This document shows, in pieces, positions 23,674 through 59,596 of a DNA stretch of 64,000 nucleotides; position 1 is the first letter of the stretch, and every line of letters starts with the position of its first letter. The notes below the pieces were generated by a model. The model was not told where the DNA came from and searched no databases. It was given only the letters and a program-made list of their open reading frames with translations. Location: contig JABAQQ010000020.1 in assembly GCA_019187225.1 (NCBI GenBank), forward strand, positions 79,327-143,326. The letters are read 5' to 3'. The position numbers and the translations under genes were made by a program. This DNA is from Saprospiraceae bacterium (GTDB lineage: Bacteria > Bacteroidota > Bacteroidia > Chitinophagales > Saprospiraceae).

Positions 23674-23780
23674 AGCTGCCGCAAAAATGCGAAAAGGATT
23701 GGCTCCTGCACATAGCTTTCATTAAGGCAGGAAGTGATCTTCGTTACCGGTTACAGATGATTTCAGACGTGGATTTAATC

Positions 23781-46731: not shown

Positions 46732-46883
46732 TGTTCAAAAGTGGTTTCAAGGTTTTTTTACCCACCAGAGATTTATCGAAGGTAGGCAAGGTTAAATGGT
46801 TTCAGGGTTTTGAAAGTGGCTGTCCCGTAAGCCGGAGGGGCGATTTTCGTGCGAAAAGTACAATGTTTAAAAATAGTATTCAT

Positions 46884-46950
46884 CGCAGAGACGCAGAGAC
46901 GCAGCGTTTTTTTGTCATCCTGGAAGGATCTACTCTGCGCCTCTGCGGTG
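46884..46950. repeat. CGCAGAG word repeat with inverted copy
   Basis: CGCAGAGACGCAGAGACGCAG (46884-46906) and the inverted TCTGCGCCTCTGCGGTG (46934-46950). The words GCAGAGAC and CTCTGCG are known as interspersed repeats in many unrelated bacteria. First element of a 180-bp composite repeat region. Confidence 0.8.
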
Positions 46951-46965
46951 AATTGCCGCGATTCA

Positions 46966-47069
46966 TGCGAATCAGGAGCAAAACACTCATGGCACGTTTA
47001 CGAAACTTTCGAAGTTTCGTAAACGTAAACACCTGGAAATCAACGACGAATTTTTACCCCTGATTCGCA
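46966..47069. repeat. Nested inverted repeat TGCGAATCAGG around a REP palindrome
   Basis: Left arm TGCGAATCAGG (46966-46976), right arm CCTGATTCGCA (47059-47069) with the 33-bp REP palindrome inside. The right arm lies in the HemJ coding end and encodes its last residues ANPANQG. Confidence 0.7.
46994..47026. repeat. REP palindrome, distant copy
   Basis: ACGTTTACGAAACTT with perfect complement and loop TCG, 33 bp: same family as the copies next to the RAYT gene 41 kb away, differing only in the inner bases (CTT for CCT). Confidence 0.85.
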
Positions 47070-47593
47070 GGATTCGCCTTCCGGATCCCCCACCCTATCA
47101 GCCCGGTAAACACCGCCAGCCCGCCGAACAACGCAAGGTAATTGATCCCGCTTTTAAAAACCGCCAGAAAGACGATGGCGACAAGGAAAATTGTCGGCAC
47201 TTCATTCAGCGCCCGGAAATAGATGTGATTGTACTTTGATGCCCCGTTTTCGAGGTCGCGAATGTGCTTTTTTAAAGAATGCGTATAACCGGTGAGTAAG
47301 ATCAGAAAAAACAGTTTCAATTGCATCCAGTTTTGATGCAGCCAGGCGGGTTGGATGAACAACATCAAAACGCCGAAGGTCCAGGTGATGATAATAGCGG
47401 GTTGAAGGATGATCTTGTACGATTTCCACTCCATCACCGTGTAATGTCGCGCCAAAATGCCGCGTTCCGGCTCGTCTTTTTCCAACGCCATCGCGTGATA
47501 GACCATGATGCGCACGAGGTAGAACATGCCGGCCATCCAGGAGACCATGCCGATGAGGTGGAGGGATTTTGCTATGCTGTACCAGGTTGCCAT
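47054..47593 (-). CDS. hemJ: Protoporphyrinogen IX oxidase HemJ
   Basis: 179 residues with four or five membrane helices. HemJ features: LHLIGMVSWMAGMFYLVRIMVYH with conserved His, HYTVMEWKSYKIILQPAIIITWTFGVLML, and LKLFFLILLTGYTHSLKKHIRDLENG. It converts protoporphyrinogen IX to protoporphyrin IX in haem synthesis and sits in the inner membrane. The start at 47593 is preceded by a tandem word repeat; the frame beyond it reads through that repeat. Its last codons come from a repeat word. Confidence 0.85.
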   Translation of the reverse strand: MATWYSIAKSLHLIGMVSWMAGMFYLVRIMVYHAMALEKDEPERGILARHYTVMEWKSYKIILQPAIIITWTFGVLMLFIQPAWLHQNWMQLKLFFLILLTGYTHSLKKHIRDLENGASKYNHIYFRALNEVPTIFLVAIVFLAVFKSGINYLALFGGLAVFTGLIGWGIRKANPANQG

Positions 47594-47598
47594 TTTTG

Positions 47599-47634
47599 GT
47601 GATTGGTTGGATTGGTGATTGGTTGGATTGGGCA
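47599..47634. repeat. Tandem repeat GGTGATTGGTTGGATT
   Basis: Two exact 16-bp units (47599-47614, 47615-47630) plus GGGC, 6 bp upstream of the hemJ ATG on the other strand. GG pairs recur every 4-5 bp. Confidence 0.85.
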
Positions 47635-47690
47635 AAAATAGAGCGCAACTTTCCGAAAGTTTTCAATTTTTGGAAAGTTTGAATGGGCGC

Positions 47691-47723
47691 AAAAAGCGCG
47701 GCGGGGAAATCCCCGGCCGCGCT
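47691..47723 (-). terminator. Intrinsic terminator of the outer-membrane protein gene
   Basis: On the minus strand AGCGCGGCCGGGGA, loop, TCCCCGCCGCGCT then TTTTT: a GC-rich stem with T-run, 49 bp downstream of the stop of the barrel protein. A second hairpin with arms CGGAAGTCCGTT / AACGGACTTCCG (47731-47768) lies between. Confidence 0.8.
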
Positions 47724-47771
47724 CTGTGCAGCGGAAGTCCGTTCCGCTGATGCCCGAAACGGACTTCCGGG

Positions 47772-48395
47772 TTATTTGATCAAAGCAATATTCACCCCGA
47801 CCATCAGTCGCGCCGGTGTATTGCTGAAGTGGTATTTGTCGCCGAAGAAAGTGATGTGGTCGCCTTGTTTGGTAAAATTGCCTTCGTAGCGGATATCGGC
47901 GGAGATGCGCCCCGTGCCGATGGTCAGGCCGGCCTGCCACCCCCAGGTCATTTGTTTCCAGCGCGCGGCGTAACCGTCGAAATCGGTGAGTTCCGATTTG
48001 CTGCTCAGGTAATAGTGGCCTACCGGACCGCCGTGGAAGCGCAGCGGACCTGCGGTGAAGCCCAACAGAAGCGGAATATCGAGGTACTGGTATTTTTCAT
48101 TTTTGATGACTTCGCTGACACTCGATTCGCCAACCTTATAGTCGGTTTTGTTGGAGTTGAAGATCAATTCGGGCTGGAAAAACACCTTGTTGCCGAAACG
48201 GGCGTATACGCCGAACTGAGTGCCGAACTTGAGTTTGTCCACCCCTAAATTGAACGATGTATCCCCGCTTCCGACAATGATGTCTTCGGGTTTGTTGACC
48301 TGGGTATTCATGCCGCCTTTGATCCCGATGGAGAATTGCGCCTGCGCAGCGAACGCGCAGCATAGAAAGCCGATTGCAAAAAACAGATTTTTCAT
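47772..48395 (-). CDS. PorT-like outer-membrane beta-barrel protein
   Basis: 207 residues. Signal peptide MKNLFFAIGFLCCAFAAQAQ, then GIKGGMNTQVNKPEDIIVGSGDTSF and repeated aromatic-ended strands (FQPELIFN, KYQYLDIPLLLGFTAGPLRFHGG, AGLTIGTGRISADIRYEGNF), the Bacteroidota porin-like outer-membrane beta-barrel (OMP_b-brl_2) family. The family includes gliding/secretion components and porins; no more can be said here. The 48395 start is fixed by the signal peptide. Followed by a strong terminator. Confidence 0.85.
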   Translation of the reverse strand: MKNLFFAIGFLCCAFAAQAQFSIGIKGGMNTQVNKPEDIIVGSGDTSFNLGVDKLKFGTQFGVYARFGNKVFFQPELIFNSNKTDYKVGESSVSEVIKNEKYQYLDIPLLLGFTAGPLRFHGGPVGHYYLSSKSELTDFDGYAARWKQMTWGWQAGLTIGTGRISADIRYEGNFTKQGDHITFFGDKYHFSNTPARLMVGVNIALIK

Positions 48396-48510
48396 ACGAG
48401 AGTGTGTGTAGGTTGTGTGTTTACCCAAAAACGGCGACCGGTTCGGATTGGTACAGCGGAAAAGTTAAAAACCCGGAATTTAACCCTTCGCTAACCAGGA
48501 GCGTTATGCG

Positions 48511-48626
48511 GTCATTAAAGTAATTGGGGTAAATTAACGCGAGTTGTGACCTGCTCAACTTGCGTTGATTATTGGAACAAGAAGAATTCCCCAATTACCC
48601 CCAATTACCCCAATTACTTTAATGAC
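48511..48626. repeat. Perfect 22-bp inverted repeat around TAATTGGGG words
   Basis: Arms 48511-48532 and 48605-48626 (GTCATTAAAGTAATTGGGGT... and complement) enclose a 72-bp loop with a second nested stem (AACGCGAGTTG/CAACTTGCGTT) and a direct repeat of CCCCAATTA (three C-tracts). The right arm reaches the presumed start of the EngB gene, so it may influence its translation or read as a cruciform. Confidence 0.8.
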
Positions 48627-48660
48627 GAACAACGAATTCCCTACCTTCGCCCTCCGAACC

Positions 48661-49254
48661 ATGGAAGTCACCAGTGCCGAATTTGTAGCCAGTTACCCGA
48701 AAGCGAGTCAATGCCCGAAAGACGGCAGGCCGGAGTTCGCGTTTATCGGCCGCTCCAATGTGGGGAAGTCGTCGCTGATCAACATGCTGACGCGCAAGGG
48801 CCTGGCCAAAGTATCCGCTACGCCGGGCAAGACGCGGCTGCTCAATTATTTTCTCATCAACAAGACCTGGTACCTGGTGGATTTGCCCGGCTATGGCTAC
48901 GCCCGCGTCTCGAAAGAGCAGCAAAAAACGCTGGCGAACATGATCAACGGCTATTTTCTGAACCGGAAAGAACTCATTTGCGCTTTCGTTTTGATAGATT
49001 CCAATATTCCTCCGACTAAAATTGATCTCGAATTTATCAACGGTTTGGGCGAAAACGGAATTCCTTTCGCCATCGCTTTTACCAAAACCGACCGCATCGG
49101 GAAAACGACTTTAGATAAAAATATTGCCCTGTTTATGGACGAGTTGAGTAAAACCTGGGAGACCTTGCCGCCCTGTTTCATCACATCTTCGGAGCGAAAA
49201 ACAGGCAAAACCGAGATTTTGGATTTTATCGGGAAAGCACTGAAACAGCTTTAG
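48661..49254 (+). CDS. engB: Ribosome biogenesis GTPase EngB/YihA
   Basis: 197 residues with the G1-G4 motifs of EngB: FIGRSNVGKSSLI, TPGKTRLLNYF, VDLPGYGYARVS, FTKTDRIGK. Needed for 50S ribosome assembly or cell-cycle checks. ATG 48661 (MEVTSAEF) is preferred to 48622 because the latter falls inside the inverted repeat and would add 13 residues not seen in the family. It starts a co-oriented run with the acyltransferase. Confidence 0.88.
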   Translation: MEVTSAEFVASYPKASQCPKDGRPEFAFIGRSNVGKSSLINMLTRKGLAKVSATPGKTRLLNYFLINKTWYLVDLPGYGYARVSKEQQKTLANMINGYFLNRKELICAFVLIDSNIPPTKIDLEFINGLGENGIPFAIAFTKTDRIGKTTLDKNIALFMDELSKTWETLPPCFITSSERKTGKTEILDFIGKALKQL

Positions 49255-49260
49255 GTGTAA

Positions 49261-49289
49261 CCCCAACCCTCTACCCTCTACCATCTACC
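49261..49289. repeat. Short-word repeat CCCTCTACC
   Basis: AACCCTCTACCCTCTACCATC and so on: three copies of a 7-9 bp word in the 44-bp gap between engB and the acyltransferase gene. Matches the words in that gene at 50273-50303. Confidence 0.6.
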
Positions 49290-49298
49290 TTATTATCC

Positions 49299-51110
49299 GT
49301 GAAAAAAAACGTAACCATATACCCACGCGTCATCGAGCGCATGGAAGACTGGCCGATCTACCGGCTGAGCAAAGACCGTGCGGAGTTCATCCGCGAGATT
49401 GACGAATTCACGTTCAACCGCATTGCCAACCGCCACCGGAAAGACCTGGCCGATGTGTTGGTGAAAACCATCTACCAGGAACGCATCCGCATCAAGGAAT
49501 CGCCCTGGAAAGTGGACCCTCCCAATGAACGGCAGTTCTGGAACAGGATCAGCAAAAGACTCATCAAAAAATCGCTCGACCGCAACGACGCAGAAGCCAA
49601 GGCCGCGGCGGAAGATATCCTGCAAAAGATCATTCATCGCTATTCGGAAGAAATTGTCGGTACCTTCCAGGTCGGTACCTTCAAGTTTGCACAGCGCTTC
49701 CTCACTGCCTTTTTCAACCGGCTGTTCAATGCGGCCGTCGGCAAGAGCATACGCTCCATTTTTCGCGGGCGGCGACATCTGTACGAACGCCTTAATGTGG
49801 TGGGCGATGTGGAAACGGTGCGCGCACTTTTCCAACACGGCACAGTCGTCGTAGTGCCCACTCACAGCAGCAACCTCGACTCTATCCTCGTAGGTTATGC
49901 CATGGACCAGATCATGGGTTTGCCATCGTTCAGTTATGGCGCGGGGCTGAATCTCTACAATTTCGGCCCGGCGGCCTATTTTATGAACCGTCTCGGCGCT
50001 TATCGTGTGGACCGCCGCAAAAAAAATTCCATCTACCTCGAAACGCTCAAGGCCATGAGCAATCTCAGCATCCAGCGCGGCGTCAACAGCCTGTTTTTTC
50101 CGGGCGGCACGCGCTCGCGTTCCGGCGCGCTGGAGGCCGACCTCAAAATGGGCTTGCTCGGTACGGCGGTAGAAGCGCAGCGGGCAATGTGCCAGGGATT
50201 GGGGATTGCATCGCCTGCGGCAAGCCTATGGCGACCGAAAGGAGATTTGGGATCAGAGAAGGACGCACTTTCGCCATCTACCGTCCACCGTCCACCGTCC
50301 ACCGGGAAAAAAGTCTTCATCGTCCCGATGGTGCTTTGTTACAATTTTGTGCTCGAAGCGCCTTTTCTCATCGAGCAACATCTGCGCAGCACAGGCAAGG
50401 AGAACTACCTCCGCCTGAAAGACGAAGGCACGAGTGTACGCGCCTGGTTGCGCTTTATCTGGCGGTTTTTCAGCACCACGAGCGATATCACGCTCAGCGT
50501 AGGCCGGCCGATGGACGTTCTGGGCAATTTTGTGGACGCAGAAGGACGAAGTTTCGACCGCTTTGGCAATGGACTGGACGTCAGCGAATATTTCATGGGC
50601 CGGAAAAACGAGATCAATGAAGACCGGCAGCGCGAGGAAGAATACACCAAACTGCTCGCCGAACGCATCGTGGAGCGATATCATGTGGAAAATATCGTGT
50701 TGAGCAGCCACCTCGTGGCTTATGCCGTGTTTGAAATGTTGTTGCACGAAAATCCGAAACTCGACCTGTTCGGTATCCTGCGCCTGCCTCCCGACGACTA
50801 TGTTTTCCCTTTCCGCGCCGTGGAAGAAGTGGTGGAACAAATGCAGGAAAAGCTCGTGGAATGGAAAGAACAGGGAAAGATCCGCCTGGCGCCCGAAATT
50901 CACCGCGCCGCCGCCGACGTGGTGCGCGACGGGGTGAAAAACCTCGGCGTTTTCCATACCGAAAAACCGCTGGGGTTTACCAGGGACGGCGACATTGTTT
51001 CGTCCAATTTCCGTGTGTTGTATTTTTACCACAACCGGCTGGAGAACTATCAATTGGATAAATATGTGCACTGGAAAGCGGAGGAGATCGAGGTGTTGAA
51101 GGTGGATTGA
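49299..51110 (+). CDS. Glycerol-3-phosphate/lysophosphatidate acyltransferase, PlsB-like
   Basis: 603 residues from GTG 49299. The acyltransferase core is VVVPTHSSNLDSILVGY (HX4D catalytic), LNLYNFGPAAYFMNRLGAYRVDRR, SLFFPGGTRSRSGAL (FPxGTRS), and VPMVLCYNFVLEAPFLI. The size fits PlsB-type enzymes, which start phospholipid synthesis at the membrane. Residues about 325-340 (DALSPSTVHRPPSTGKK) are encoded by a triple repeat CCGTCCAC, an in-frame insertion that seems tolerated as a loop. The first half before the core is a helical domain. Confidence 0.85.
   Translation: MKKNVTIYPRVIERMEDWPIYRLSKDRAEFIREIDEFTFNRIANRHRKDLADVLVKTIYQERIRIKESPWKVDPPNERQFWNRISKRLIKKSLDRNDAEAKAAAEDILQKIIHRYSEEIVGTFQVGTFKFAQRFLTAFFNRLFNAAVGKSIRSIFRGRRHLYERLNVVGDVETVRALFQHGTVVVVPTHSSNLDSILVGYAMDQIMGLPSFSYGAGLNLYNFGPAAYFMNRLGAYRVDRRKKNSIYLETLKAMSNLSIQRGVNSLFFPGGTRSRSGALEADLKMGLLGTAVEAQRAMCQGLGIASPAASLWRPKGDLGSEKDALSPSTVHRPPSTGKKVFIVPMVLCYNFVLEAPFLIEQHLRSTGKENYLRLKDEGTSVRAWLRFIWRFFSTTSDITLSVGRPMDVLGNFVDAEGRSFDRFGNGLDVSEYFMGRKNEINEDRQREEEYTKLLAERIVERYHVENIVLSSHLVAYAVFEMLLHENPKLDLFGILRLPPDDYVFPFRAVEEVVEQMQEKLVEWKEQGKIRLAPEIHRAAADVVRDGVKNLGVFHTEKPLGFTRDGDIVSSNFRVLYFYHNRLENYQLDKYVHWKAEEIEVLKVD
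50273..50303 (+). repeat. In-frame CCGTCCAC repeat within the acyltransferase
   Basis: Three copies of CCGTCCAC preceded by CCATCTA in frame, encoding the STVHRPPST segment. The same word family lies in the type IIG gene (3671-3702) and in the gap at 49261-49289. Confidence 0.7.
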
Positions 51111-51151
51111 AAGGGGCGCTTGTGCGATCAGGCGCCCTTTTCATTTTTTTG
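51110..51151 (+). terminator. Intrinsic terminator of the acyltransferase gene
   Basis: AAAGGGGCGC, an 12-nt loop, GGCGCCCTTTT, then CATTTTTTT; the stem has one bulged G. It starts at the base after the stop. Confidence 0.8.
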
Positions 51152-51191
51152 TCTTTCCGTTTGCTTTTCTCTACTTTTGCCCGCCTTTTAA

Positions 51192-51236
51192 AGGATATTG
51201 GGATATTGGGATATTGGGATATTGGGATATTCGTAG
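51192..51236. repeat. Tandem GGGATATT repeat (G-quadruplex consensus)
   Basis: Four and a half copies of GGATATTG with G3-N5-G3-N5-G3-N5-G3 spacing, upstream of the enoyl-CoA hydratase gene on the plus strand. Followed by looser inverted-like words CCAAATCCCC and CAAATAACC. Confidence 0.85.
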
Positions 51237-51303
51237 ATTGAACCGCCTCCGCGTATATCCAAATCCCCAAATAACCAAATCAACAAATAACCAGTTACAA
51301 ACG

Positions 51304-52086
51304 ATGGTTTACGAAAATCTGAACATCAGCCACGACAACGATATCGCTGTCGTCACCATCAGCCGCGAAAAAGCGCTGAACGCCCTGAACACCCAAACCA
51401 TGCTCGAATTGAAGCATTTTTTTGGCGAAGCGGCGCATGAAACAGAAGGGCTGAAAGGCGTGGTCATTACCGGCGCCGGCGAAAAAGCCTTTGTGGCAGG
51501 GGCCGACATCACCGAATTCAGCAACCTGAGCGCTCCGGAAGGGATGCAGTTCGCCAAACGCGGACAGGAAGTGTTTTTCCTCGTCGAACGATTCCCCAAA
51601 CCCGTTGTGGCAGCCGTCAACGGCTTCGCGCTCGGCGGCGGCTGCGAATTGGCCATGGCCTGCCACCTGCGCATAGCGGGTGAAAAAGCCCGGTTCGGTC
51701 AGCCGGAAGTAAACCTCGGCCTCATCCCCGGCTACGGCGGCACGCAACGGCTCGTTCAGTACATCGGCAAGACGAAGGCGATGGAACTCCTGATGACCGC
51801 CGACATGATCGGCGCGGAAGAGGCGCAACGACTGGGCCTGGTCAATTACGTCGTGCCGGCAGGCGAAGAAGTATCAAAAGCCAAAGAATTGATCGAAAAA
51901 ATCGCCACCAAAGCCCCCTTCGCCATTGCCAAGATCATCGAAACGGTGAACTCTTACTACGAAGAAGGACTGGACGGCTTCTGGAAAGAGTTGGACGCCT
52001 TCGGCGAATGTTGCGGCACGGAAGATTTCGTGGAAGGCGCGGCGGCATTCGTGGAAAAAAGGAAAGCGAATTTTAAGGGAAAGTGA
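51304..52086 (+). CDS. Enoyl-CoA hydratase/isomerase
   Basis: 260 residues, crotonase fold: ISREKALNALNTQTMLEL, VVITGAGEKAFVAGADITEFS (oxyanion residue), KPVVAAVNGFALGGGCELAMACHLRIAGEKARFGQPEVNLGLIPGYGGTQRL, with both catalytic Glu positions (Glu in GGGCELAMA and PEVNLG). Converts enoyl-CoA to 3-hydroxyacyl-CoA in beta-oxidation, or the related butanoyl route. ATG 51304 is the first in-frame ATG after the repeat region. Confidence 0.92.
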   Translation: MVYENLNISHDNDIAVVTISREKALNALNTQTMLELKHFFGEAAHETEGLKGVVITGAGEKAFVAGADITEFSNLSAPEGMQFAKRGQEVFFLVERFPKPVVAAVNGFALGGGCELAMACHLRIAGEKARFGQPEVNLGLIPGYGGTQRLVQYIGKTKAMELLMTADMIGAEEAQRLGLVNYVVPAGEEVSKAKELIEKIATKAPFAIAKIIETVNSYYEEGLDGFWKELDAFGECCGTEDFVEGAAAFVEKRKANFKGK

Positions 52087-52091
52087 GATCA

Positions 52092-52130
52092 GTAGGCAGT
52101 AGGCAGTAGCAGTAGCAGTAGCAGTAGGCA
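52092..52130. repeat. GCAGTAGGCAGTA word repeat
   Basis: CAGTAGGCAGTAGGCAGTAG followed by CAGTAGCAGTAGCAGTAGG: words of 6 and 7 bp in the gap between two co-oriented genes. No inverted copy. Confidence 0.8.
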
Positions 52131-52182
52131 GTACCCTCTCCAATGAAGGCAAGGCAGGATTCACGATAATCCAACAGCATCC

Positions 52183-52566
52183 ATGAGCGAGTTATTTATC
52201 AAATTTATTAAATTCGGCATTGTCGGCGCATCGGGCGTGGGAGTTGATTTCGGTATCACCTGGTTGTGTAAGGAAAAGTTGCGCCTCAACAAATACGTCG
52301 CCAACAGCACCGGTTTCCTGTGCGCAGTGGTGAGCAATTACCTGCTGAACCGCGTGTGGACGTTCAACAGCCAGGATCCTGCCGTTGCCATGCAGTTTTC
52401 CAAATTTCTGCTGGCCTCTTTGATCGGATTGGGGATCAACAACGGCATCATTTATCTGCTCAACGAGCGGCTTGGCGTAAAATTCTATACTTCCAAACTT
52501 ATAGCTACCGGCGTGGTGACGCTCTGGAATTTTTGGGCAAATTACACTTTTACCTTCCATGCATAG
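52183..52566 (+). CDS. GtrA-like membrane protein
   Basis: 127 residues with four helices (FIKFGIVGASGVGVDFGITWL; VANSTGFLCAVVSNYLLNRVWTF; FSKFLLASLIGLGINNGIIYLL; IATGVVTLWNFWANYTFTFH), the GtrA family (NYLLNRVWTF, NFWANYTFTF). GtrA proteins flip or support undecaprenyl-linked sugars or teichoic/arabinogalactan glycosylation. Confidence 0.9.
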   Translation: MSELFIKFIKFGIVGASGVGVDFGITWLCKEKLRLNKYVANSTGFLCAVVSNYLLNRVWTFNSQDPAVAMQFSKFLLASLIGLGINNGIIYLLNERLGVKFYTSKLIATGVVTLWNFWANYTFTFHA

Positions 52567-52569
52567 CGC

Positions 52570-52645
52570 GAGGTTTAGCAGGGTTTAGGAGGTTTAGAGT
52601 AAACTTTTCTAAATCCTGCTAAACCCTCCTAAACCCCTCTAAACA
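52570..52645. repeat. GGTTTAG word repeat with inverted copy between convergent genes
   Basis: GGTTTAGCAGGGTTTAGGAGG on the left and TAAACCCTCCTAAACCCCTC on the right, each with three units, in the 84-bp gap between GtrA (plus) and the cold-shock gene (minus). Probably a bidirectional terminator. Confidence 0.75.
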
Positions 52646-52650
52646 ATTGC

Positions 52651-52842
52651 TCAGGCCAATTTGACCTCCACTGCGGTCATACCTTTTTTGCCGCGTTTGG
52701 TTTCGAACGTGACGGTATCGCCGTTACGTACTTTATCTATCAAACCGGTAACGTGGACAAAAACTTCCTGATTGGTGTCTTCTTCCACAATAAAGCCATA
52801 GCCTTTGGTTTCGTTGAAGAATTTGACGGTTCCTTTGTACAT
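52651..52842 (-). CDS. Cold-shock protein, CspA family
   Basis: 63 residues, one OB-fold cold-shock domain: MYKGTVKFFNETKGYGFIVEEDTNQEVFVHVTGLIDKVRNGDTVTFETKRGKKGMTAVEVKLA, with RNP1 KGYGFI and RNP2 VFVHV. An RNA chaperone. The ATG at 52842 is the only suitable start; the longer frame upstream is out of place. Confidence 0.95.
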   Translation of the reverse strand: MYKGTVKFFNETKGYGFIVEEDTNQEVFVHVTGLIDKVRNGDTVTFETKRGKKGMTAVEVKLA

Positions 52843-52913
52843 GAAAAAATATTTAAGAAATGAAAAATGTGATGGGGGCTCCTGGAATTGGTAATTGAAG
52901 CAATTAGCCATAA

Positions 52914-54878
52914 TCACCCTTCCTGTTTTCCTCCCCGTACCCGTTTCAGACTTACTTCTTTTACCGGTTCCAGCACCAGCGGCGCCTTTTCCACATCCAC
53001 CGAGTCGCTGTCGAGGCCGAACCAGTTTTTGGGTGAAGATACCCAACCTTTTACCGTAAGATAAATGGACATGATCAGTTGCTCGGGCCAGGGCAGTTCG
53101 TTCTCGTTGGACAAAAATTCCTGCATCAACACGAAACGGAAATCGCCGGTGGGGTATTTGCTGCTGGTGCTATGGTAACGCGAATAAACGTTCAATTCTT
53201 CGTTTTCCAAAAGGTCTTCGACCACCTTTTTCATGAACAGATTCATGCGTTGCTGCACCCGGAAGCCAAGGCGGAAATTCACCTTGTACAAGTCGTCGGG
53301 TGCGATGGTATTCACTTCGTATTCCATGGTATAGGGCTCGTCGGTCGTTTCGATGTGAACGAACCAATACACATCCGCCCTTTTGGGTTGGGTTTGAAGA
53401 ATGGAATACAAGATGCGGTCCTCCACGTTTTTCGGGTTTTTGGCGCCGGTGAGGAAAACGAGATTGGTGGCATATTTGGGAATGTCGTCGTCGTTGCTCA
53501 GGGAAATGAGTTGATCCACGTACTCCCTGATCCTGACCTCGTCGGAGTAACGCTGGCGGATGCGTTTGGCATTTACCCACAGCACCATTGTTCCCGTCAG
53601 CAATCCCGCCATCAGCACCGTTGCGTAACCGCCTTCGTGAAATTTCGCACCGTTGGCAATCAGGAACAATCCTTCAAGCAAGATATAAAAAACCAGCATC
53701 AACCAGATCAACGCCGAATGGATGCGCTTCACCACCAGCCAGTTGGACAACAGGATCGTGGTGCACAACATGGCCAGCACGATGGCCAGCCCGTAGGCCG
53801 CTTCCATTGCTCCGCTGTGTTTGAACAACAAAACGACCCCAATACACCCCACCCAAAGGAAGGTGTTCACAGCGGGGATGTAAATCTGCCCTTTCATATT
53901 GGTGGGGAATTTCACCGTCAATTTCGGCAACAAACCCAGCCGCACGGCCTCGGAGACCAATGTGAAAGACCCGGAAATAAGCGCCTGGCTCGCGATGATG
54001 GCGGCCAGGGTAGCGATGATGATGCCCGGCCAGAGAAACCAGTGCGGCATCATACCGTAAAACGGATTTTCATCCAAATGCTGTCCTTCGTGGTGCAACA
54101 ACCAGGCCGCCTGACCTAAGTAGTTGATTACCAGACACGTTTTTACAAAAATCCAGCTTACCTGAATATTCCGGCGACCGCAATGCCCCAGGTCGGCATA
54201 GAGCGCCTCCGCTCCTGTGGTGCACAGGAATACTGCCCCCAAAATGAAAATACCTTTAGGATTTGACAGCAACAATTGAATGCCGTAGTGGGGACTGAGC
54301 GCTGCCAGCACTTCCAGATCATGGCTGATATTGGCAAGTCCCAATACGGCCAGCATCGAAAACCATAGGAGCATGACAGGGCCAAAACCTTTCCCTACCG
54401 CCGCCGTTCCGAAACGCTGTACAAAAAACAGCACCGAAATAATGACAATGGTAATGGTCATCGTCGGTATACCCGGATACTTCAATTCCAATCCTTCGAC
54501 CGCGGAAGAGACCGAAATCGGCGGGGTGATCATTCCGTCGGAGATCATGGCGGCGCCTCCGATGATGGCCGGATAAAGAAGCCAGCGTTTGCGCCTGCGG
54601 ACAAGGGTATAGAGCGAAAAAATGCCCCCTTCACCGTTGTTGTCGGCCTGAAGTGTGAGCAGCACGTATTTGACGGTCGTCTGCAGCGTAAGGGTCCAAA
54701 ACACAAGCGATACCCCTCCCAAGACGGTCATCCGGTCAATGATATTTCCTTCCCCCACAATGGCTTTCATTACATAAAGCGGCGAAGTGCCGATGTCGCC
54801 GTAAATGATGCCTAATGTAATGATCAGTCCCGCCCAGGTGAGGGGATGGTGTCCATGGTGGTTGCTTTGAGCTTTCAC
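52914..54878 (-). CDS. kup: Kup-type potassium uptake transporter
   Basis: 654 residues from GTG 54878. The N-terminal transport core shows GIIYGDIGTSPLYVMKAIV, LQADNNGEGGIFSLYTLVRR, VRLGLLPKL and ANGAKFHEGGYATVL, the Kup signatures, with about twelve helices to residue 440 and then a cytosolic C-terminal domain. Takes up K+ by H+ symport. TACTTTTG on the minus strand (54901-54908) would place transcription start near 54895, so GTG 54878 is more likely than the upstream ATG at 54950. Confidence 0.9.
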   Translation of the reverse strand: MKAQSNHHGHHPLTWAGLIITLGIIYGDIGTSPLYVMKAIVGEGNIIDRMTVLGGVSLVFWTLTLQTTVKYVLLTLQADNNGEGGIFSLYTLVRRRKRWLLYPAIIGGAAMISDGMITPPISVSSAVEGLELKYPGIPTMTITIVIISVLFFVQRFGTAAVGKGFGPVMLLWFSMLAVLGLANISHDLEVLAALSPHYGIQLLLSNPKGIFILGAVFLCTTGAEALYADLGHCGRRNIQVSWIFVKTCLVINYLGQAAWLLHHEGQHLDENPFYGMMPHWFLWPGIIIATLAAIIASQALISGSFTLVSEAVRLGLLPKLTVKFPTNMKGQIYIPAVNTFLWVGCIGVVLLFKHSGAMEAAYGLAIVLAMLCTTILLSNWLVVKRIHSALIWLMLVFYILLEGLFLIANGAKFHEGGYATVLMAGLLTGTMVLWVNAKRIRQRYSDEVRIREYVDQLISLSNDDDIPKYATNLVFLTGAKNPKNVEDRILYSILQTQPKRADVYWFVHIETTDEPYTMEYEVNTIAPDDLYKVNFRLGFRVQQRMNLFMKKVVEDLLENEELNVYSRYHSTSSKYPTGDFRFVLMQEFLSNENELPWPEQLIMSIYLTVKGWVSSPKNWFGLDSDSVDVEKAPLVLEPVKEVSLKRVRGGKQEG

Positions 54879-54939
54879 TGCAATTCTGTTTTGTAAAGGG
54901 CAAAAGTATGGAAGGGTTGCAAATAAGTCATTGAATGTC

Positions 54940-55006
54940 ATTAAATTCATTAGGGGTCATTCGAGCCATTTTTTATTGACCCCTAATGACCCCTAATGAA
55001 TTTAAT
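54940..55006. repeat. Perfect 20-bp inverted repeat of GGGGTCATTA words
   Basis: Arms ATTAAATTCATTAGGGGTCA (54940-54959) and complement (54987-55006) with a 27-bp loop, plus one more CCCCTAATGA copy. The word GTCATTA recurs at 58592-58654 and 48511. It lies between the Kup promoter and the 3' end of the FKBP gene. Confidence 0.85.
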
Positions 55007-55021
55007 CCCCCCCCTGATGAC

Positions 55022-55528
55022 TTAATGATGATGCCCGCCTTCGCCGTGCACATGTCCATGCGCCAGTTCCGTCGGATCGGCATCGCGCACGCTTTCCACA
55101 TGGCCGGTGAAGTAGAGATCAACGCCTGCCATTGGGTGGTTGAAATCAATTTTCACTTTGTCCAGTCCTACCCAGGCCACCATGCCCTGAAAATGGTTGC
55201 CGTTTTGGTCGGTCAGGGGGAGCATATTGCCGACTTCCAGCAGGCCGTCGGGGATTTTGCCATCCATTTCGAACATATTTTTGGGCACTTCCACGAGTGC
55301 CGAATCATCGTATTCGCCGTAAGCGCTGGCGGCGGGAATGCCGAAAGCGAACTTGTCACCGGCCTTCATTCCGGCCAGGTTTTTTTCAAAATCGGGGATC
55401 ATCATGCCGATGCCATAGATAAAAACCAGCGGCTGGCCGCCGTTAGTGGTTTCTACCAGTTGTCCGTCGGCAGTTCCTTCGGTCAGGGTGTAGTGCACGG
55501 ACACTACTTTGTTTGCTGCAATATTCAT
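55022..55528 (-). CDS. SlyD-like FKBP-type peptidyl-prolyl isomerase
   Basis: 168 residues. FKBP-type core VVSVHYTLTEGTADGQLVETTNGGQPLVFIYGIGMMIPDFEKNLAGMKAGDKFAFGIPAASAYGEYDDSALVEVPKNMF with an IF chaperone insert (PDGLLEVGNMLPLTDQNGNHFQGMVAWVGLDKVKIDFNHPMAG), and a His-rich tail AHGHVHGEGGHHH for nickel or other metal. Cytosolic chaperone/isomerase. The start at 55528 (MNIAANKV) is right for the family; CAAAGGTA at 55550-55557 is its -7 box on the minus strand. Confidence 0.92.
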   Translation of the reverse strand: MNIAANKVVSVHYTLTEGTADGQLVETTNGGQPLVFIYGIGMMIPDFEKNLAGMKAGDKFAFGIPAASAYGEYDDSALVEVPKNMFEMDGKIPDGLLEVGNMLPLTDQNGNHFQGMVAWVGLDKVKIDFNHPMAGVDLYFTGHVESVRDADPTELAHGHVHGEGGHHH

Positions 55529-55634
55529 TGATAAAAAATTGGTGAGCCGCAAAGGTACGGCGATTGAAGGGGATTCAGGGCAAGTATTTAAGGGGAAGAG
55601 GCATTTTTTCCGATGTCCGGTCCATTCCGAACCG

Positions 55635-56018
55635 TCAGATGTTCTTGAATTCATCCATTTCCCGCCGCTCTTTCTTGGTAGGACGTCCGGCGCCCTTTTC
55701 GCGTTTCTCTACAACAGGTATTCCGCCCGAAAACCAGTCTTCATACTTTTTCTTTTCCGCTTCCGGCGTGATGTCTTCATAGCAGGTAAGAGCAATCGGG
55801 GCGCCCACCCGTTTTTCTATCAATTGCAGAGCGCGGTATTGAAAGTGAAAACCCTCTTTTTTGACCCATACAATCTCGCCTTCCGACAGCAGGTAAGAAG
55901 GTTTCACGGCTTCGCCGTTGATTTTTACTTTTCCAGCCTTGCAGGCGTCGGTGGCAATGGTGCGGCTTTTGAATATGCGCACGCTCCACAGCCATTTGTC
56001 AATCCGGACTTTGTTCAT
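55635..56018 (-). CDS. S4-domain RNA-binding protein (Hsp15-like)
   Basis: 127 residues: S4 domain MNKVRIDKWLWSVRIFKSRTIATDACKAGKVKINGEAVKPSYLLSEGEIVWVKKE, then a basic C-terminal tail (EKREKGAGRPTKKERREMDEF). The Hsp15 family recycles ribosomes stalled with a tRNA on the large subunit. Start and stop unambiguous. Confidence 0.9.
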   Translation of the reverse strand: MNKVRIDKWLWSVRIFKSRTIATDACKAGKVKINGEAVKPSYLLSEGEIVWVKKEGFHFQYRALQLIEKRVGAPIALTCYEDITPEAEKKKYEDWFSGGIPVVEKREKGAGRPTKKERREMDEFKNI

Positions 56019-56040
56019 TGTCGGTGCATAAAAGTTGATG

Positions 56041-56190
56041 AGGGTTGATAAGGGTTGATGAGGGTTGATAAGGGTTGATGAGGGTTGATAAGGGTTGATG
56101 AGGGTTGATAAGGGTTGATGAGGGTTGATAAGGGTTGATGAGAGCGCCGAAAATCAACCTCCTCAACTTTTATCAACCCTTATCAACCCC
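56041..56190. repeat. GGGTTGATAA tandem repeat with inverted copy (G-quadruplex consensus)
   Basis: Five exact 20-bp units (56041-56140), each made of two 10-bp words AGGGTTGATA and AGGGTTGATG: ten GGG tracts with 7-nt spacing on the plus strand, followed at 56153-56190 by CAACCTCCTCAACTTTTATC-type inverted words. Fits G3-N7 repeated quadruplex spacing. In the gap between the S4 gene and the next lipoprotein gene. Confidence 0.92.
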
Positions 56191-56287
56191 AAAAAAACAG
56201 CGACCCGGCAAACGCAAAGTTCGCCAGGCCGCGGGAATTTTAAGCGGGATAAATCACAGGATTATCATTTCTCGCAATTGTTTCGGA

Positions 56288-56701
56288 TTATTCATCTGCG
56301 CGTTCAAACGTGATCTCGATCTTGTCGCCGTCCTGTATGGTTTCGACGATCAGTTCGTCGCCCGAAAATTCCAGGACTTCGTAGGATTCCGATTCGTCTG
56401 TGTCGTCGTAAGTCAGTTCGATTTCTTCGCTGCCATCCGTTGACCATTCGCCTTTGGGATTGGTCGTCGTCATATTGCCGCTGAAGATATCGGTCGTTTT
56501 GAGCGTGGCTTTGAAATCTTTATCGGCTTGCAGTTCGAGGTCGAGCGAAAAATAACTGGTGACGTCGTTTCCGTTGAGTTTCACATTGACAGATTGCCAT
56601 TCGCCGGTTATCTTTTCTTCGAAGGTAGCTTCTTTTTTGCAGGCGGTGAATGACAAGGCGGTGATGAGGAGTACCGGGAGGTTGAAAAATGACTTCTTCA
56701 T
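56288..56701 (-). CDS. Lipocalin-like lipoprotein
   Basis: 137 residues. Lipobox ITALSFTACKK gives Cys at about 21; the mature part has a lipocalin-like beta pattern (ITGEWQSVNVKLNGNDVTSYFSLDLELQADKDFKATLKT...GEWSTDGSEEIELTYDDTDESESYEVLEFSGDELIVET). Envelope protein of unknown ligand. Confidence 0.75.
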   Translation of the reverse strand: MKKSFFNLPVLLITALSFTACKKEATFEEKITGEWQSVNVKLNGNDVTSYFSLDLELQADKDFKATLKTTDIFSGNMTTTNPKGEWSTDGSEEIELTYDDTDESESYEVLEFSGDELIVETIQDGDKIEITFERADE

Positions 56702-57009
56702 GGAATGACTGATTGAAAATTGATGTGTAACGGGTTTTGAATGATTGCCTGTGCACCGGCAGTTTACGGCGCTATAAATGCAGCCGGAGCGGTTTTTATT
56801 GCTGCTACCACAGGTGGTTTAACTTTACCATAAAATTTGTAAGTTTTGCACATTTAACATTCGGAAGGCTTGATTTTTATCAAAAGTTGTAACTTCGCAG
56901 ACCAATTTCGTCTGAAATCAGCATATTTTTTGAGGTATTTTAATCCGCATACCCACTTTGGTGAAACACCAAGTTGCCCAATCATTTCACCTTTATTTAA
57001 CAACCGATA
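56702..57009. other. Gap without recognisable gene
   Basis: 308 bp between the divergent lipocalin-like gene and the next gene. Presumably holds both promoters; no -33/-7 pair is certain. No repeat or ORF of interest. Confidence 0.5.
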
Positions 57010-57717
57010 ATGCTGAAGAAGAACTCTACACTGCTTCCCCTCTTTTTACTCCTTTTTACCTTTTCCGCGACCGCCCAAAACCTGAAAATAAATCTCGGCC
57101 TGAACATTGGGATGTCGCAACTCTTCCATGACACCCGCTTCGAGACGACGCCGCTGCACGATCTGTACTCGTTCACTGCCATCTCGCACCGCCCGGACGA
57201 TTATTCCTGGGAGGAATTTGAAAAAGACTACGGCATCCGAACGTCGTTCATTCAACCGCGCTTCGGGGTTTCCGCCCACTTCACCTATAAAGACTGGCCG
57301 CTAATGGCCTCTGTGGAAGCGATGAGCTCGCCGTCTTCCTACCAGAAAATGGCGTATGGCTTCACCGTCGGCATCGGCAAGGAATTCTACTCCTACGACG
57401 ACTATTATTTCTCTTTCCTCGGAGGCTATAAATTTGTGAAAGACAACGGCTTCGGTGCAACGACTGTGGTGAACAGCATTGGAAACGACGAAGCCCGCGA
57501 ATACGCTTCCACATTTTTCAACCCGGAGAATCCGCTCGGTACCAAAACCGGCAACCTGTTCACGCTGCGGGGCGGATTGGGCCGCGAACTCGGCGAGGCA
57601 AAGATCATCCGGGTCGGTGTGGAAGCTTACGGCGAACTGGATCTGACCGCCAAAACGAAACGCCAGTCGCGTATGACCAACTACGGTGCGCAGTTTTTTC
57701 TGCGGTTTAAATTGTAA
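57010..57717 (+). CDS. Outer-membrane beta-barrel-like protein of unknown family
   Basis: 235 residues with signal peptide MLKKNSTLLPLFLLLFTFSATAQ, then NLKINLGLNIGMSQLFHDTRF and strand-like segments with aromatic ends (FGVSAHFTYKDWPLMASVEAMS; YGFTVGIGKEFYSYDDYYFSFLGGYKF; RGGLGRELGEAKIIRVGVEAYGELDL; YGAQFFLRFKL), ending in FKL as in porin-type barrels. I do not recognise a named family. Convergent with PPK2 across a perfect palindrome. Confidence 0.75.
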   Translation: MLKKNSTLLPLFLLLFTFSATAQNLKINLGLNIGMSQLFHDTRFETTPLHDLYSFTAISHRPDDYSWEEFEKDYGIRTSFIQPRFGVSAHFTYKDWPLMASVEAMSSPSSYQKMAYGFTVGIGKEFYSYDDYYFSFLGGYKFVKDNGFGATTVVNSIGNDEAREYASTFFNPENPLGTKTGNLFTLRGGLGRELGEAKIIRVGVEAYGELDLTAKTKRQSRMTNYGAQFFLRFKL

Positions 57718-57723
57718 TTGCAG

Positions 57724-57785
57724 GGTTTAGAAAGTTTGGAGGGGTTTAGAACGCGCGTTCTAAACCCCTCCAAACTTTCTAAACC
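57724..57785. repeat. Perfect 62-bp palindrome of GGTTTAG words
   Basis: 31-bp arms without loop, centred on ACGCGCGT, made of AAAGTTTGGAGGGGTTTAGA-type words, then more of the same words to 57815 without inverse. Lies between two convergent genes whose stops are at 57717 and 57812, so it may act as a bidirectional terminator. As DNA it would extrude a cruciform. Confidence 0.92.
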
Positions 57786-57811
57786 TTCCAAACTTTCCAA
57801 ACCTTCCAAAC

Positions 57812-58591
57812 TCAACTTTTCTTCTTCGCCTTTATCTGCGTTTGCACGGGCTTGGGCAATTGCATGTCGAGTTTTTCCAACCCTTCCACCAGGGTTTTTG
57901 CGATAAAGTAGTCGCGGTACCAGCGTTTGTCCACCGGACAAATGTGCCAGGGCGTGGTACTGTTGTTGATGGCGTATTCGTAGGCTTCCATGTATTTGTC
58001 CCACAATTTGCGCTCTTCCCAGTCGGCTTCTTTGTGCTTCCAGAATTTAGCCGGGTCTTCCAGTCGCTGACGCAGTTGCTCCTCCTGCTCCTCCGACGAG
58101 ATGTGCATGTAGAATTTGAAGATCAGCGTATTGTTGTCGTGCTTCAACAGATCTTCGAAAGCGTTGATGGCGGCCATACGCGTTTGCACCCGTTTCATAT
58201 CAATCCAGCCGTGAACGCGCTGGATGAGGATATCCTCGTAATGGCTGCGGTTGAAAATAGTGAGCGTGCCCTTTTCCGGCACACATTTGTGCACCCGCCA
58301 GAGAAAATCATGGGCGAATTCCGCTTCCGTCGGCTTTTTGAACGACGCCAGGTCGAGACCGGCAATGGTGCATTCGGAAAACACCCGGCGCACGGCGCCG
58401 TCCTTGCCGCTCGCGTCCATGCCCTGAAGGACGATCAGCACGGAATGTTTGGCTTCCGCATACAGCAGGTGCTGGAGTTCGCCGAGGCGCTTGACGAGTT
58501 TTGCCGTCTTGTCTTTGAGCGCATCTTTTTTGAAGCCTTTCGGCGGCAGGGTGGAGATTTCGGAAAGTTTGATAAGATTGGATTTTGCCAT
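57812..58591 (-). CDS. Polyphosphate kinase 2 (PPK2)
   Basis: 259 residues. Walker A IVLQGMDASGKDGAVRRV, GLDLASFKKPTEAEFAHDFLWRVHKCVPEKGTLTIFNRSHYEDILIQRVHGWI, with the lid and the Walker B in GTLTIFNRS. Transfers phosphate between polyP and nucleotides. Type (class I versus II) not decided. Clear start at 58591. Confidence 0.92.
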   Translation of the reverse strand: MAKSNLIKLSEISTLPPKGFKKDALKDKTAKLVKRLGELQHLLYAEAKHSVLIVLQGMDASGKDGAVRRVFSECTIAGLDLASFKKPTEAEFAHDFLWRVHKCVPEKGTLTIFNRSHYEDILIQRVHGWIDMKRVQTRMAAINAFEDLLKHDNNTLIFKFYMHISSEEQEEQLRQRLEDPAKFWKHKEADWEERKLWDKYMEAYEYAINNSTTPWHICPVDKRWYRDYFIAKTLVEGLEKLDMQLPKPVQTQIKAKKKS

Positions 58592-58654
58592 TGATTGTCA
58601 AGTCATTAAGAGTCATTTTGGTTATTTAGGGTCATTAAAGGTCATTAATGACCC
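58592..58654. repeat. GTCATTA word repeat with inverted arms
   Basis: AAGTCATTAAGAGTCATTTT, then GGGTCATTAA-AGGTCA-TTAATGACCC (58629-58654; 10-bp arms). The word GTCATTA is the same as at 54940-55006. In the gap between PPK2 and the DUF58 gene. Confidence 0.8.
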
Positions 58655-58657
58655 AAT

Positions 58658-59596
58658 TTACCCCATTTTCGCCCGCTTCATCATCCAGGTCTGCAATATC
58701 TGGTGAAAACCCTTGTTGATATCGGCTTCCACGAAATCAATTTTATACTGGAGACAGCGGAGTTTGAGTTGTTCGGTGAAAGCCGCCACTTGTTTGACGT
58801 AGTATTCTTTCACCTGATTGGGCTGGAGTTTCACCTGTTCGCCACTTTCCATGTCGACGAACACATAGGGGCGGTTCTCGAATTCAAAATCGAGCTCCTT
58901 GCTTTTGTCGGTCACATGGAACAGGATCACTTCGTGTTTGGCATAGCGCAGGTGCTGCAATGCGGCAAAGATCTCTTCGGCCTGGTCGGGTTGTTCCATC
59001 ACGTCGGTAAAAATGACCACCAGCGAGCGCCGGTGGATGGCTTCGGCAACCTGGTGAAGGATGGCGGCGAGGTTGGTGGGGCGGTTCAGTTCGGGATTTT
59101 CGATGCGCTGCGCCAATTGGGACAACAACATCCGGTAGTGCACCGTATTGGATTTCGCCTGCGTATTGAGCCGGATCTCGTCGTCGAAAAGGGTCAGGCC
59201 GAAAGCGTCGCGCTGGCGGCGCAGGGCGTTCATCAGCACCGCCGCCGATTGCGCGGCAAAGCAAAATTTGTTTTTGTACTTGAGTTTTTCCGGGTTTTTC
59301 TCATCCCAGGGGTAGTACATGGTGGAAGAAGCATCCAGCACGATCTGGCAGCGCAGGTTGGTCTCTTCCTCAAATTTTTTGGTGAACAACTTGTCCGTGC
59401 GGCCATACACCTTCCAGTCAATGTTGCGGGTGCTTTCGCCCACGTTGTAGAGGCGGTGTTCGGCGAATTCGACCGAAAAACCGTGGAACGGGCTGCGGTG
59501 CAGGCCGACGATAAAACCTTCCACGACCTGGTGCGCAAGCAATTCGAGGTTGCTGCCAAGGGCACGGATATCTTGTGATTCAAGAATTTGTGACAT
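58658..59596 (-). CDS. DUF58 domain protein
   Basis: 312 residues. DUF58 core: RNIDWKVYGRTDKLFTKKFEEETNLRCQIVLDASSTMYY (NIDWKVYARTD-type motif, MIDAS-like DxSxS), SLVVIFTDVMEQPDQAEEIFAALQHLRYAKHEVILFHVTD. Usually encoded next to a MoxR ATPase; none is in the window. Start at 59596 (MSQILESQDI) chosen over 59650 by family length. Cytosolic. Confidence 0.88.
   Translation of the reverse strand: MSQILESQDIRALGSNLELLAHQVVEGFIVGLHRSPFHGFSVEFAEHRLYNVGESTRNIDWKVYGRTDKLFTKKFEEETNLRCQIVLDASSTMYYPWDEKNPEKLKYKNKFCFAAQSAAVLMNALRRQRDAFGLTLFDDEIRLNTQAKSNTVHYRMLLSQLAQRIENPELNRPTNLAAILHQVAEAIHRRSLVVIFTDVMEQPDQAEEIFAALQHLRYAKHEVILFHVTDKSKELDFEFENRPYVFVDMESGEQVKLQPNQVKEYYVKQVAAFTEQLKLRCLQYKIDFVEADINKGFHQILQTWMMKRAKMG

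Follow-up and report, generated by a model that had tools for sequence, protein, structure and literature searches.

What fills the gaps between genes in this part of a bacterial genome, and by what agency do such sequences arise and spread? The question is raised by the window studied here, the whole 64-kb stretch of DNA that was analysed, from contig 22 of the 7.18-Mb draft genome of a Saprospiraceae bacterium (the source genome). An earlier note had described a short word repeated in tandem in nearly every gap longer than 40 bp between 46.9 and 58.7 kb, usually followed by the same word inverted, and this description holds. Taking gaps of at least 40 bp between 46.7 and 58.7 kb from the gene calls (the left edge of the first from the list of open reading frames, ORFs), we detected a tandem word in 11 of 13 gaps with Tandem Repeats Finder (TRF; minimum score 30); the gaps at 55529-55634 and 56702-57009 gave no array at this score. 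By eye, an inverted copy of the same word was present in seven of the 11 array gaps (46884, 48508, 52570, 54927, 56034, 57723 and 58601), and the other four (47596, 49266, 51193 and 52090) had a single arm or an opposite arm with a different word. Exact long tandem runs in the 64-kb window came to 10 rows, or 9 distinct stretches, against 0 in each of five second-order Markov sequences. Seven of eight window stretches folded as hairpins with a z of −3.4 or lower, the exception being 51190-51296 (z −0.8). All word hairpins of the window are gene-less and sit between protein genes, and positions 46000-59000 gave no Rfam match. We propose that the arrays are the two arms of small, mostly gene-less hairpin elements resembling ribosomal intervening sequences (IVSs), that these elements are mobile and that a small protein, the intervening-sequence protein (IVP), acts on the arms; we give this reading a probability of about 0.6.

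The ORFs lying between opposite arrays of the same word included, among ordinary genes, two members of PF05635 (Pfam E values 4e-34 and 2e-23), the family of 23S-rRNA intervening-sequence proteins (IVP, S23p):

C21:35731-36117, IVP gene between GGGATATT arrays (Pfam)
C22:34599-34994, IVP gene between GTTTGAG-type arrays (Pfam)

The source genome has 11 PF05635 matches, and word arms were visible by eye beside every one, on both sides of ten and on one side of a contig-end copy. Their arm words were GGCAGTGGCAGTAG, GTTATTGGTTGCTGG, GGACGTTAGACTGTT, GGCAGTGGGCAGTG, GTGTTTGAG, GATTGGTGATTGG, GGGTTGGCGGGTTAAC, GGACTGTTGGACGTTGGAC (contig end), GACGGTGGACGGTA, GGGATATT and AAATTGTTTGA. IVP genes and, separately, GxxExxY genes accompany the hairpins. 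Of 198 genomes sampled from the phylum, 157 had PF05635, in up to 16 copies; one query for phage IVP genes returned no match.

For counting we used a strict arm test, which accepts inverted arms of the same word, at least 16 bp long and recognized through common 9-mers, within 250 bp; the controls were genes of 240-600 bp. IVP loci passed in 9 of 11 cases in the source genome, 15 of 28 in relatives and 8 of 16 on plasmids, compared with 7/203, 3/129 and 5/120 of the respective control genes, so that 32/55 IVP loci stand against 15/452 controls (Fisher p 1e-24). The left arm around the IVP gene was G-rich rather than C-rich in ratios of 9:0 (source genome), 11:4 (relatives) and 8:0 (plasmids). 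An earlier test requiring at least 14 bp was passed by 8/11 source-genome and 10/16 plasmid loci, with controls at 8/205, 4/129 and 7/120, and we set aside a lax 8-mer arm test, which 40/55 IVP loci passed, since 22-25% of the control genes passed it as well. The IVP gene within each locus was located with a hidden Markov model; a regular-expression ORF finder gave only 15 of 30. The 28 loci of relatives include two pieces of one broken gene (L381 and L393); L366, the same as the source-genome C22 copy, was dropped, and L401 is cut by a contig end. Another gene set, ECH, passed the strict test at 1/19 loci.

The words are dispersed throughout the source genome. In a 985-kb sample, a tandem score of at least 14 was reached by 99 of 548 gaps, compared with 0/548 shuffled and 1/548 coding stretches, and an inverted score of at least 14 by 129 of 548, compared with 0 shuffled and 1 coding. 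Tandem gaps were fewer in two relatives, G009 (21/363; 0 shuffled, 7 coding) and G007 (15/342; 0 and 2). The sample held 202 intergenic arrays in 126 kb of non-coding DNA versus 80 in 858 kb of coding DNA, the tandem arrays amounting to 11.8 kb or 9.4% of non-coding bases. The words are not locus-specific, as had been thought: GGGATATTGGGATATT occurs 145 times in the genome (reversed pattern, 0), and 21 word families of at least three arrays, grouped by a common 7-mer, hold 172 of the 202 intergenic arrays. The largest are GACGGTR (28 arrays), GGGATATT (24), GGACATT/GGACGTT (19 and 8), GGTTGAT (11) and GTTTGAG (10). Because the same word stands at many loci, local slippage cannot be its source. 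Tandem, intergenic and dispersed heptamers are the mark of the short tandemly repeated repetitive sequences (STRR) of cyanobacteria, and the arrays here share these traits, with a unit of 7 bp in several families and 8-10 bp in others.

These dispersed arrays share words with the IVP loci. Leaving out four arrays that are themselves IVP arms, we found 11-mers from the 11 source-genome IVP flanks in 90 of 198 dispersed arrays, and reversed 11-mers in 1. The corresponding numbers were 27 for the IVP flanks of relatives (28 loci), 8 for those of plasmids (16 loci) and 33 for 39 control-gene loci, array-rich gaps included. With 14-mers, 84 dispersed loci matched (summed, some double-counted) versus 4 for reversed sequences and 1 for 15 foreign sets. 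Across 13 congeners, array density rose with IVP copy number (rho 0.80, p 0.001; G011, with two fragments, entered as 1 IVP); for genome size rho was 0.44 (p 0.13, not significant).

A polarity rule runs through the arrays. Among those with unequal G and C (196 of the 202), the G-rich strand, read 5'->3', pointed away from the flanking gene and towards the middle of the gap in 153: arrays near the left gene were G-rich 80:18 and those near the right gene C-rich 73:25 (Fisher p 1.7e-15). The rule was kept in relatives (G009 60/75 arrays, G007 40/51). Gaps with both array kinds were G-first in 31 of 34 cases; of the three exceptions, one spans an uncalled GxxExxY gene between its arrays (C2:187.5-188.4 kb) and one of the remaining two also has the CCGCAGATTT word. 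Source-genome gaps that combine tandem and inverted repeats had a G-rich left arm in 69 cases, a C-rich one in 9 and an even one in 1; the G-rich to C-rich ratio was 14:3 in convergent, 42:6 in co-directional and 13:0 in divergent gaps. As divergent gaps follow the polarity, it is not a transcript effect alone. This rule takes the place of the grammar suggested earlier, a G-rich tract plus an AT spacer: GG was no commoner than in shuffled units (6 observed, 6.3 expected, 10 units). Selection for G-quadruplexes was likewise rejected, as GG/GGG runs in the ten units tested were not above those in shuffled units. If IVP bound the G-rich strand, this could be one reason for the G-rich arm coming first.

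Close relatives differ in words at the same gaps. Syntenic parts of G007 and G009 show about 95% identity. One spacer of a tRNA cluster holds a GTTGGTT-type hairpin in G007 and a AGGTTAGA array in G009, and the preceding spacer has a GTCATTA hairpin only in G007; other differences at the same gap are a long array in one genome only or an expanded arm. In the window gap 51111-51303, the right arm (CCAAATAACCAAATCAACAAATAACC) pairs by eye with a left arm that G007, G009 and G010 retain, so that one arm was replaced; there is no array in G008, G012, G003 and G005 and a different one in G002. A gene-less GGTAGAAGG hairpin found only in G009 has a loop that resembles, by eye, that of a hairpin elsewhere common to both genomes. 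At the G007 IVP locus L391, both flanks align to G009 (93.3% over 1099 bp and 93.7% over 1335 bp); the intervening stretch measures 878 bp in G007, where it includes an IVP gene and its GTTGGTTGTTCG arms, and 123 bp in G009, where it holds an unrelated hairpin. A second present/absent pair (L367/L419) has a single matching flank and is not informative. A candidate target-site duplication in G009 (TGGTTGAGRTAA, by eye) was not reproduced, and the copy concerned has ends like those of a miniature inverted-repeat transposable element (MITE). Since words and arms differ at the same gaps, turnover is fast. Identical words at identical loci in relatives would have pointed to old terminators, according to the earlier note; what we found at these gaps was instead a different word, a single replaced arm or no array.

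A second hairpin kind is linked to GxxExxY genes (TIGR04256, PF13366), of the PD-(D/E)XK superfamily. Same-word arms passed the strict test at 19/30 GxxExxY loci from the order and at 12/30 from the phylum, the latter to be read without a size-matched control from their own genomes. These arms had no clear polarity (10:5 in the order, 5:5 in the phylum). At least four C[AG]C[AG][AG]A[GT] motifs surrounded 10/30 GxxExxY genes in the order and 19/30 in the phylum, compared with 0/19, 2/12 and 1/8 controls. When CGCARAGACGCARAGACGCAR was scanned against one genome each of 84,980 species, the matches listed included contigs of many phyla, many of them metagenome bins, and one archaeal contig (by title). 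A GxxExxY ORF was found in 6 of 120 listed stretches, all 18-162 bp from the word, a count that comes with no control rate.

The same architecture was seen in other phyla. From 24 records of plasmid PF05635 genes, mostly cyanobacterial, we viewed 16, and clear arms were visible by eye with GTAGGGA (Nostoc edaphicum), GGGAACA (Nostoc C052), AAGGGAA (Geminocystis) and GGAGATA (Picosynechococcus); L406 and L417 had no opposing arms beside the IVP gene by eye. The likeness to cyanobacterial heptamers that had been suspected thereby gains support, as several cyanobacterial-plasmid IVP genes sit between heptamer arms. Three of the 16 plasmid IVP genes (L403, L406 and L409, cyanobacterial) lie within CRISPR-Cas gene runs, flanked by cas6 and cas4 in two cases and by cas10 and a cmr3-type gene in the third; a figure legend in a CRISPR-discovery paper names a 23S rRNA IVP (PMC10910872, in the portion available). 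The IVP gene on Azospirillum lipoferum AZO_p2 (L414) is within a stretch that Rfam calls bacterial large-subunit rRNA. It has, by eye, arms of AGAGGACGGATGACAGAGGACGG and is thus a ribosomal IVS with word arms, although it is not among the eight strict plasmid passes.

Ribosomal IVSs are the closest known likeness. The available sections of PMC4990558 describe hairpins with complementary ends, some with an S23p gene in the loop, sporadic in presence and with short direct repeats beside the gene; in Coxiella these are GACAGAT heptamers, variable in copy number by strain, upstream of the S23p gene. Ribosomal IVSs are also characterized by RNase III excising them from the transcript with no ligation. 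Arms enclosing an IVP/S23p gene were found for the element family here, and the window copies hold no gene. Unlike rRNA IVSs, the source-genome copies are many and mostly gene-less, lie between protein or tRNA genes and have long tandem-word arms, with many words per genome. As the window copies lie outside rRNA genes, and only the comparison locus L414 lies in one, we call them IVS-like rather than IVSs. Intergenic heptamers are also described for Nostoc (GGGGA(C/T)T) and Xanthomonas (GGGAATC) in the text available from PMC4692102; they resemble the present arrays in being intergenic and G-rich, the Xanthomonas ones with 70 and 75 cases in which two repeat sites are convergent, and differ in being discussed there in terms of G-quadruplexes, with no IVP gene named in that portion. 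The available part of PMC4679880 reports TAACTGA direct repeats in Beggiatoaceae, cyanobacteria and some Bacteroidetes, with no evident mechanism. Like the words here, these are tandem heptamers near genes, common to distant phyla; unlike them, they consist of one word in 169 direct sets and one indirect, with no IVP link in that part and no occurrence of 'four helix bundle' in the text of the paper.

In the window itself, the arrays are as follows (no strand is assigned unless one is given).

46884-46955, CGCAGAG-word hairpin (CGCAGAGACGCAGAGACGCAG ... CTCTGCGCCTCTGCGG); TRF, fold z −3.9; few 12-mers in common with the flanks of GxxExxY loci L170 (4) and L354 (2), controls 0/39
47596-47631, single G-type arm, word TTGGTGATTGGTTGGA; TRF; 12-mers in common with the arms of source-genome IVP gene C1:35215 (L399)
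48508-48627, hairpin GTCATTAAAGTAATTGGGG ... CCCCAATTACCCCAATTACTTTAATGAC; TRF, fold z −9.2; none of the IVP and GxxExxY loci examined has this word
49266-49289, lone C-type arm (ACCCTCT); TRF; no word match among the IVP and GxxExxY loci examined
50276-50306, + strand, word ACCGTCC within the acyltransferase-like ORF 49299-51110; TRF; word in common with the IVP hairpin at C7 (L383)
51193-51231, left arm (GGGATATT)5 of gap 51111-51303; TRF; same word as IVP hairpin C21:35731-36117
51255-51293, right arm of that gap, different word (CCAAATAACCAAATCAACAAATAACC); no IVP match, controls 1/39
52090-52133, G-type arm CAGTAGG; TRF; word of IVP hairpins C28 (L394) and C31 (L397)
52570-52644, GGTTTAG-word hairpin; TRF, fold z −6.5; no IVP/GxxExxY word match
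54927-55010, GTCATTA / GGGGTCATTA-word hairpin; TRF, fold z −7.2; no IVP/GxxExxY word match
56034-56189, GTTGATRAGG-word hairpin, left arm of 20-bp period and right arm shorter; TRF, fold z −7.5 (56050-56195); word of an IVP hairpin in G007 (L369)
57723-57812, GTTTAGAA/AGTTTGGA-word hairpin; TRF, fold z −11.2; no IVP/GxxExxY word match
58601-58655, GTCATTA-word hairpin; TRF, fold z −3.5 (58598-58665); no IVP/GxxExxY word match
23779-24042, not within the reported range, arrays of the CCGCAGATTT word, C-first; TRF; GxxExxY gene C2:187766-188107 is flanked by this word

Six of the 13 arrays of the reported range thus have words in common with IVP or GxxExxY loci, five of them with IVP loci; four (47596, 50280, 51193 and 52090) match IVP loci of the source genome. 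Apart from the 1/39 at 51255, all word-match controls for the window arrays were 0/39. Within the acyltransferase-like ORF, positions 50190-50310 hold GGGATT- and ACCGTCC-type words with the open frame kept; G007 and G009 are shorter there and unrelated.

We infer mobility, IVP as its agent and binding to the arms from this combination of architecture, polarity, gene association, shared words and differences between close relatives. Each element is built like a 23S rRNA IVS, with a G-rich word in tandem, then a loop and then that word in inverted form, and gene-bearing copies carry the gene for IVP (S23p, a four-helix bundle) in the loop. The element would be copied into new gaps along with its word. 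Its arms would then lengthen, shorten and be replaced through slippage and template switching, so that each lineage would drift to a word of its own and a gap would be quickly reworded. Within its own hairpin, an IVP multimer might bind the word arms, in the form of DNA or structured RNA, and might promote insertion where a hairpin is harmless.

Several observations weigh against this proposal. In the window, 7 of 13 arrays have no word match among the IVP and GxxExxY loci examined; 23 of the 55 IVP loci fail the strict arm test, and reverse transcriptase (RT) loci (4/12) and Y1 transposase loci (2/8) also pass it. IVP similarity predicts word similarity weakly (Mantel r 0.30, 0/2000; source genome r 0.43, 149/5000). 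Tandem words of G007/G009 IVP loci recur at source-genome loci (L367 at 8, L390 at 4, L369 at 11 and L391 at 2), so the words are not strictly genome-specific. Source-genome hairpins without a tandem word likewise lean G-first (47:23), and GGACATT and CAAAG words lie partly within MITE-like repeats with ends of their own. GxxExxY copies follow array density better than IVP copies do (rho 0.94 versus 0.80), and Y1_Tnp counts follow it weakly (rho 0.55, p 0.05); the 13 congeners behind these values are related genomes, 10 of them sampled at 10-45 kb. No reproducible target duplication was found, and mobility was not seen as an event. In the literature, S23p seems, on the published Coxiella results, not to be produced there in vivo (PMC4990558, in the sections available), and Nostoc PCC 7120 is reported to have only a few paired repeats, with no repeats at all on plasmids (PMC4692102, likewise in part).

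An RNA intermediate is an unlikely alternative. In such a scheme, hairpin RNA would be cut out, as rRNA IVSs are by RNase III, reverse transcribed with IVP as an Avd-like cofactor and re-inserted, the words arising from template jumping by the RT. An AlphaFold2 model of the C22 IVP (mean pLDDT 90.8) matched the S23-family structures XCC0516 (2gsc, TM 0.75-0.80 / 0.89-0.91) and BT_0352 (2rld) and next the Avd proteins of diversity-generating retroelements (DGRs), 4dwl (TM 0.72/0.87) and, from a DGR complex, 8ube (0.71/0.83), with weak Foldseek E values of 0.07-0.4. The four-helix-bundle fold is common to both, and one IVP matched the Avd profile at E 5e-9, below the cut-off. This likeness fits IVP as a putative nucleic-acid-binding cofactor; we know of no catalytic residues for it. 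Two of the three source-genome RTs lie near an IVP element, at 2.4 and 5.5 kb. The first of these, on C7 (about C7:140.1-141.5 kb), however, has a true Avd of its own just upstream (E 4e-30), with which it likely forms a DGR, and the IVP hairpin there is separate.

Unlike Avd, which works with the RT of a DGR, IVP elements hold no RT between their arms: none was present in the source-genome IVP hairpins read, where template and variable repeats were not searched. The earlier note had suggested looking for a co-occurring RT. The search gave no support, as RVT_1 counts bore no relation to array density (rho −0.09, 13 congeners) and RVT_1 had no match in two drafts, G006 (11 IVPs, 95% complete) and G010 (7 IVPs, 82% complete). 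None of the 25 RT models listed per protein for the source-genome RTs was named DRT10 (PADLOC copy, 2023), template RNA not being searched. Because of the RVT_1 counts and the two drafts, we slightly favour a route without a dedicated RT.

A shade less likely still is that the genes are passengers: the arrays would spread otherwise, by slippage or ectopic recombination, and the small IVP and GxxExxY genes would lodge between them because hairpins are harmless sites. That arrays flank other genes too (15/452 controls, 4/12 RT loci), the weak link between IVP and word similarity, and the GGACATT and CAAAG words in MITE-like repeats all speak for this. It sits poorly with the enrichment at IVP loci over controls, which is 9/11 versus 7/203 in the source genome itself, and with the same build recurring on cyanobacterial plasmids and within an rRNA gene.

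Old, selected bidirectional terminators that expand by slippage are improbable, and the earlier suggestion that the arrays go beyond ordinary terminators is upheld. The stable predicted hairpins, an outer array edge at a median of 9 bp from the gene and the top rate of array gaps in convergent pairs (25/82, versus 58/349 co-directional and 16/117 divergent) would suit terminators. Yet divergent gaps hold arrays too, with the same polarity, the same word stands at many loci, beyond the reach of local slippage, and close relatives differ in words.

We consider it very improbable that the arrays are repetitive extragenic palindromic (REP) elements, or the hairpins formed from them (REPINs), moved by a Y1 transposase (REP-associated tyrosine transposase, RAYT), or repeats selected as G-quadruplexes. 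The co-occurring transposase that had also been suggested was present (14 of 20 genomes have Y1_Tnp matches, and the source genome has three); its relation to array density was the weak one given above, and RAYT/REP was rejected on this ground. Array-poor G004 and G008 carry 5 and 4 Y1 matches, more than the source genome, and GG is not enriched in the units. REPINs and MITEs are also short inverted-repeat elements in gaps with many copies; the IVP hairpins differ in having no transposase, and copies of GGGATATT or of GACGGTR share, by eye, no loop, flank or conserved ends, whereas some GGACATT and CAAAG copies do have conserved ends. That neither a plain insertion sequence nor CRISPR explains the arrays, as had been noted, stands.

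Some repeats in these genomes are of other kinds. A separate family of about 100 bp with TATAC...GTATA ends (TATACTTCGCGCCG...CGAATCAAGGTATA), at G007:C2 / G009:C4, is polymorphic between the two genomes as clean insertions and counts in favour of the REP/RAYT reading. On C5 and C2 of the source genome, a MITE-like repeat of about 100 bp with ends AAGTANNCGGACA...TGTCCNCATACTTA holds GGACATT words, and some GGACATT arrays resemble expanded copies of it. At C22:14004-15040, two adjacent ORFs lie between GACATTG-word arrays; we take the pair to resemble an IS630-type transposase in two frames.

Least probable of all is telomerase-like healing, in which both 3' ends of a double-strand break would be extended with G-rich words and joined, the enzyme being DRT10-like or some other RT. 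The arrays have the polarity of a pair of 3' ends bearing the G-rich strand, and the tandem-repeat-synthesizing DRT10 exists (PMC12632851, in the part available), but we dropped this lead because IVP genes in the loops are left unexplained and RVT_1 counts are unrelated to the arrays, with no RVT_1 match in the two IVP-rich drafts.

We return, then, to IVS-like hairpin elements on which IVP would act. IVSs, S23p and heptamer repeats are already known, and that an IVS is mobile, with an ORF aiding its mobility, has been proposed before (Ralph and McClelland 1993, cited in the available sections of PMC4990558). New here are IVS-like elements outside rRNA genes and the tie between IVP or GxxExxY genes and dispersed word hairpins; in the open-licence literature we found no paper joining the two. 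A wider generalization is possible, if short of probable: a class of mobile elements without a transposase or RT of their own, each a hairpin with evolving tandem-word arms. An Avd-like four-helix-bundle protein (or, in the second kind, a PD-(D/E)XK protein) recognizing its own word would move the hairpin or maintain it. Ribosomal IVSs would be the best-known landing site of this class, and the heptamers of cyanobacteria, possibly also those of Xanthomonas and Beggiatoa, its gene-less copies.

Heptamer-type repeats and ribosomal IVSs have been known for decades with no agreed origin or function. Our results suggest a family of very small mobile elements behind a type of repeat that occurs in several bacterial groups and has been puzzling. 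Should the link prove sound, a single element family would account for both heptamers and ribosomal IVSs, and a sizeable part of the intergenic DNA in such genomes would be element-derived and open to being misread as terminators or regulatory repeats. Many words would gain a candidate gene, and the origin of the words would become a question about small protein families.

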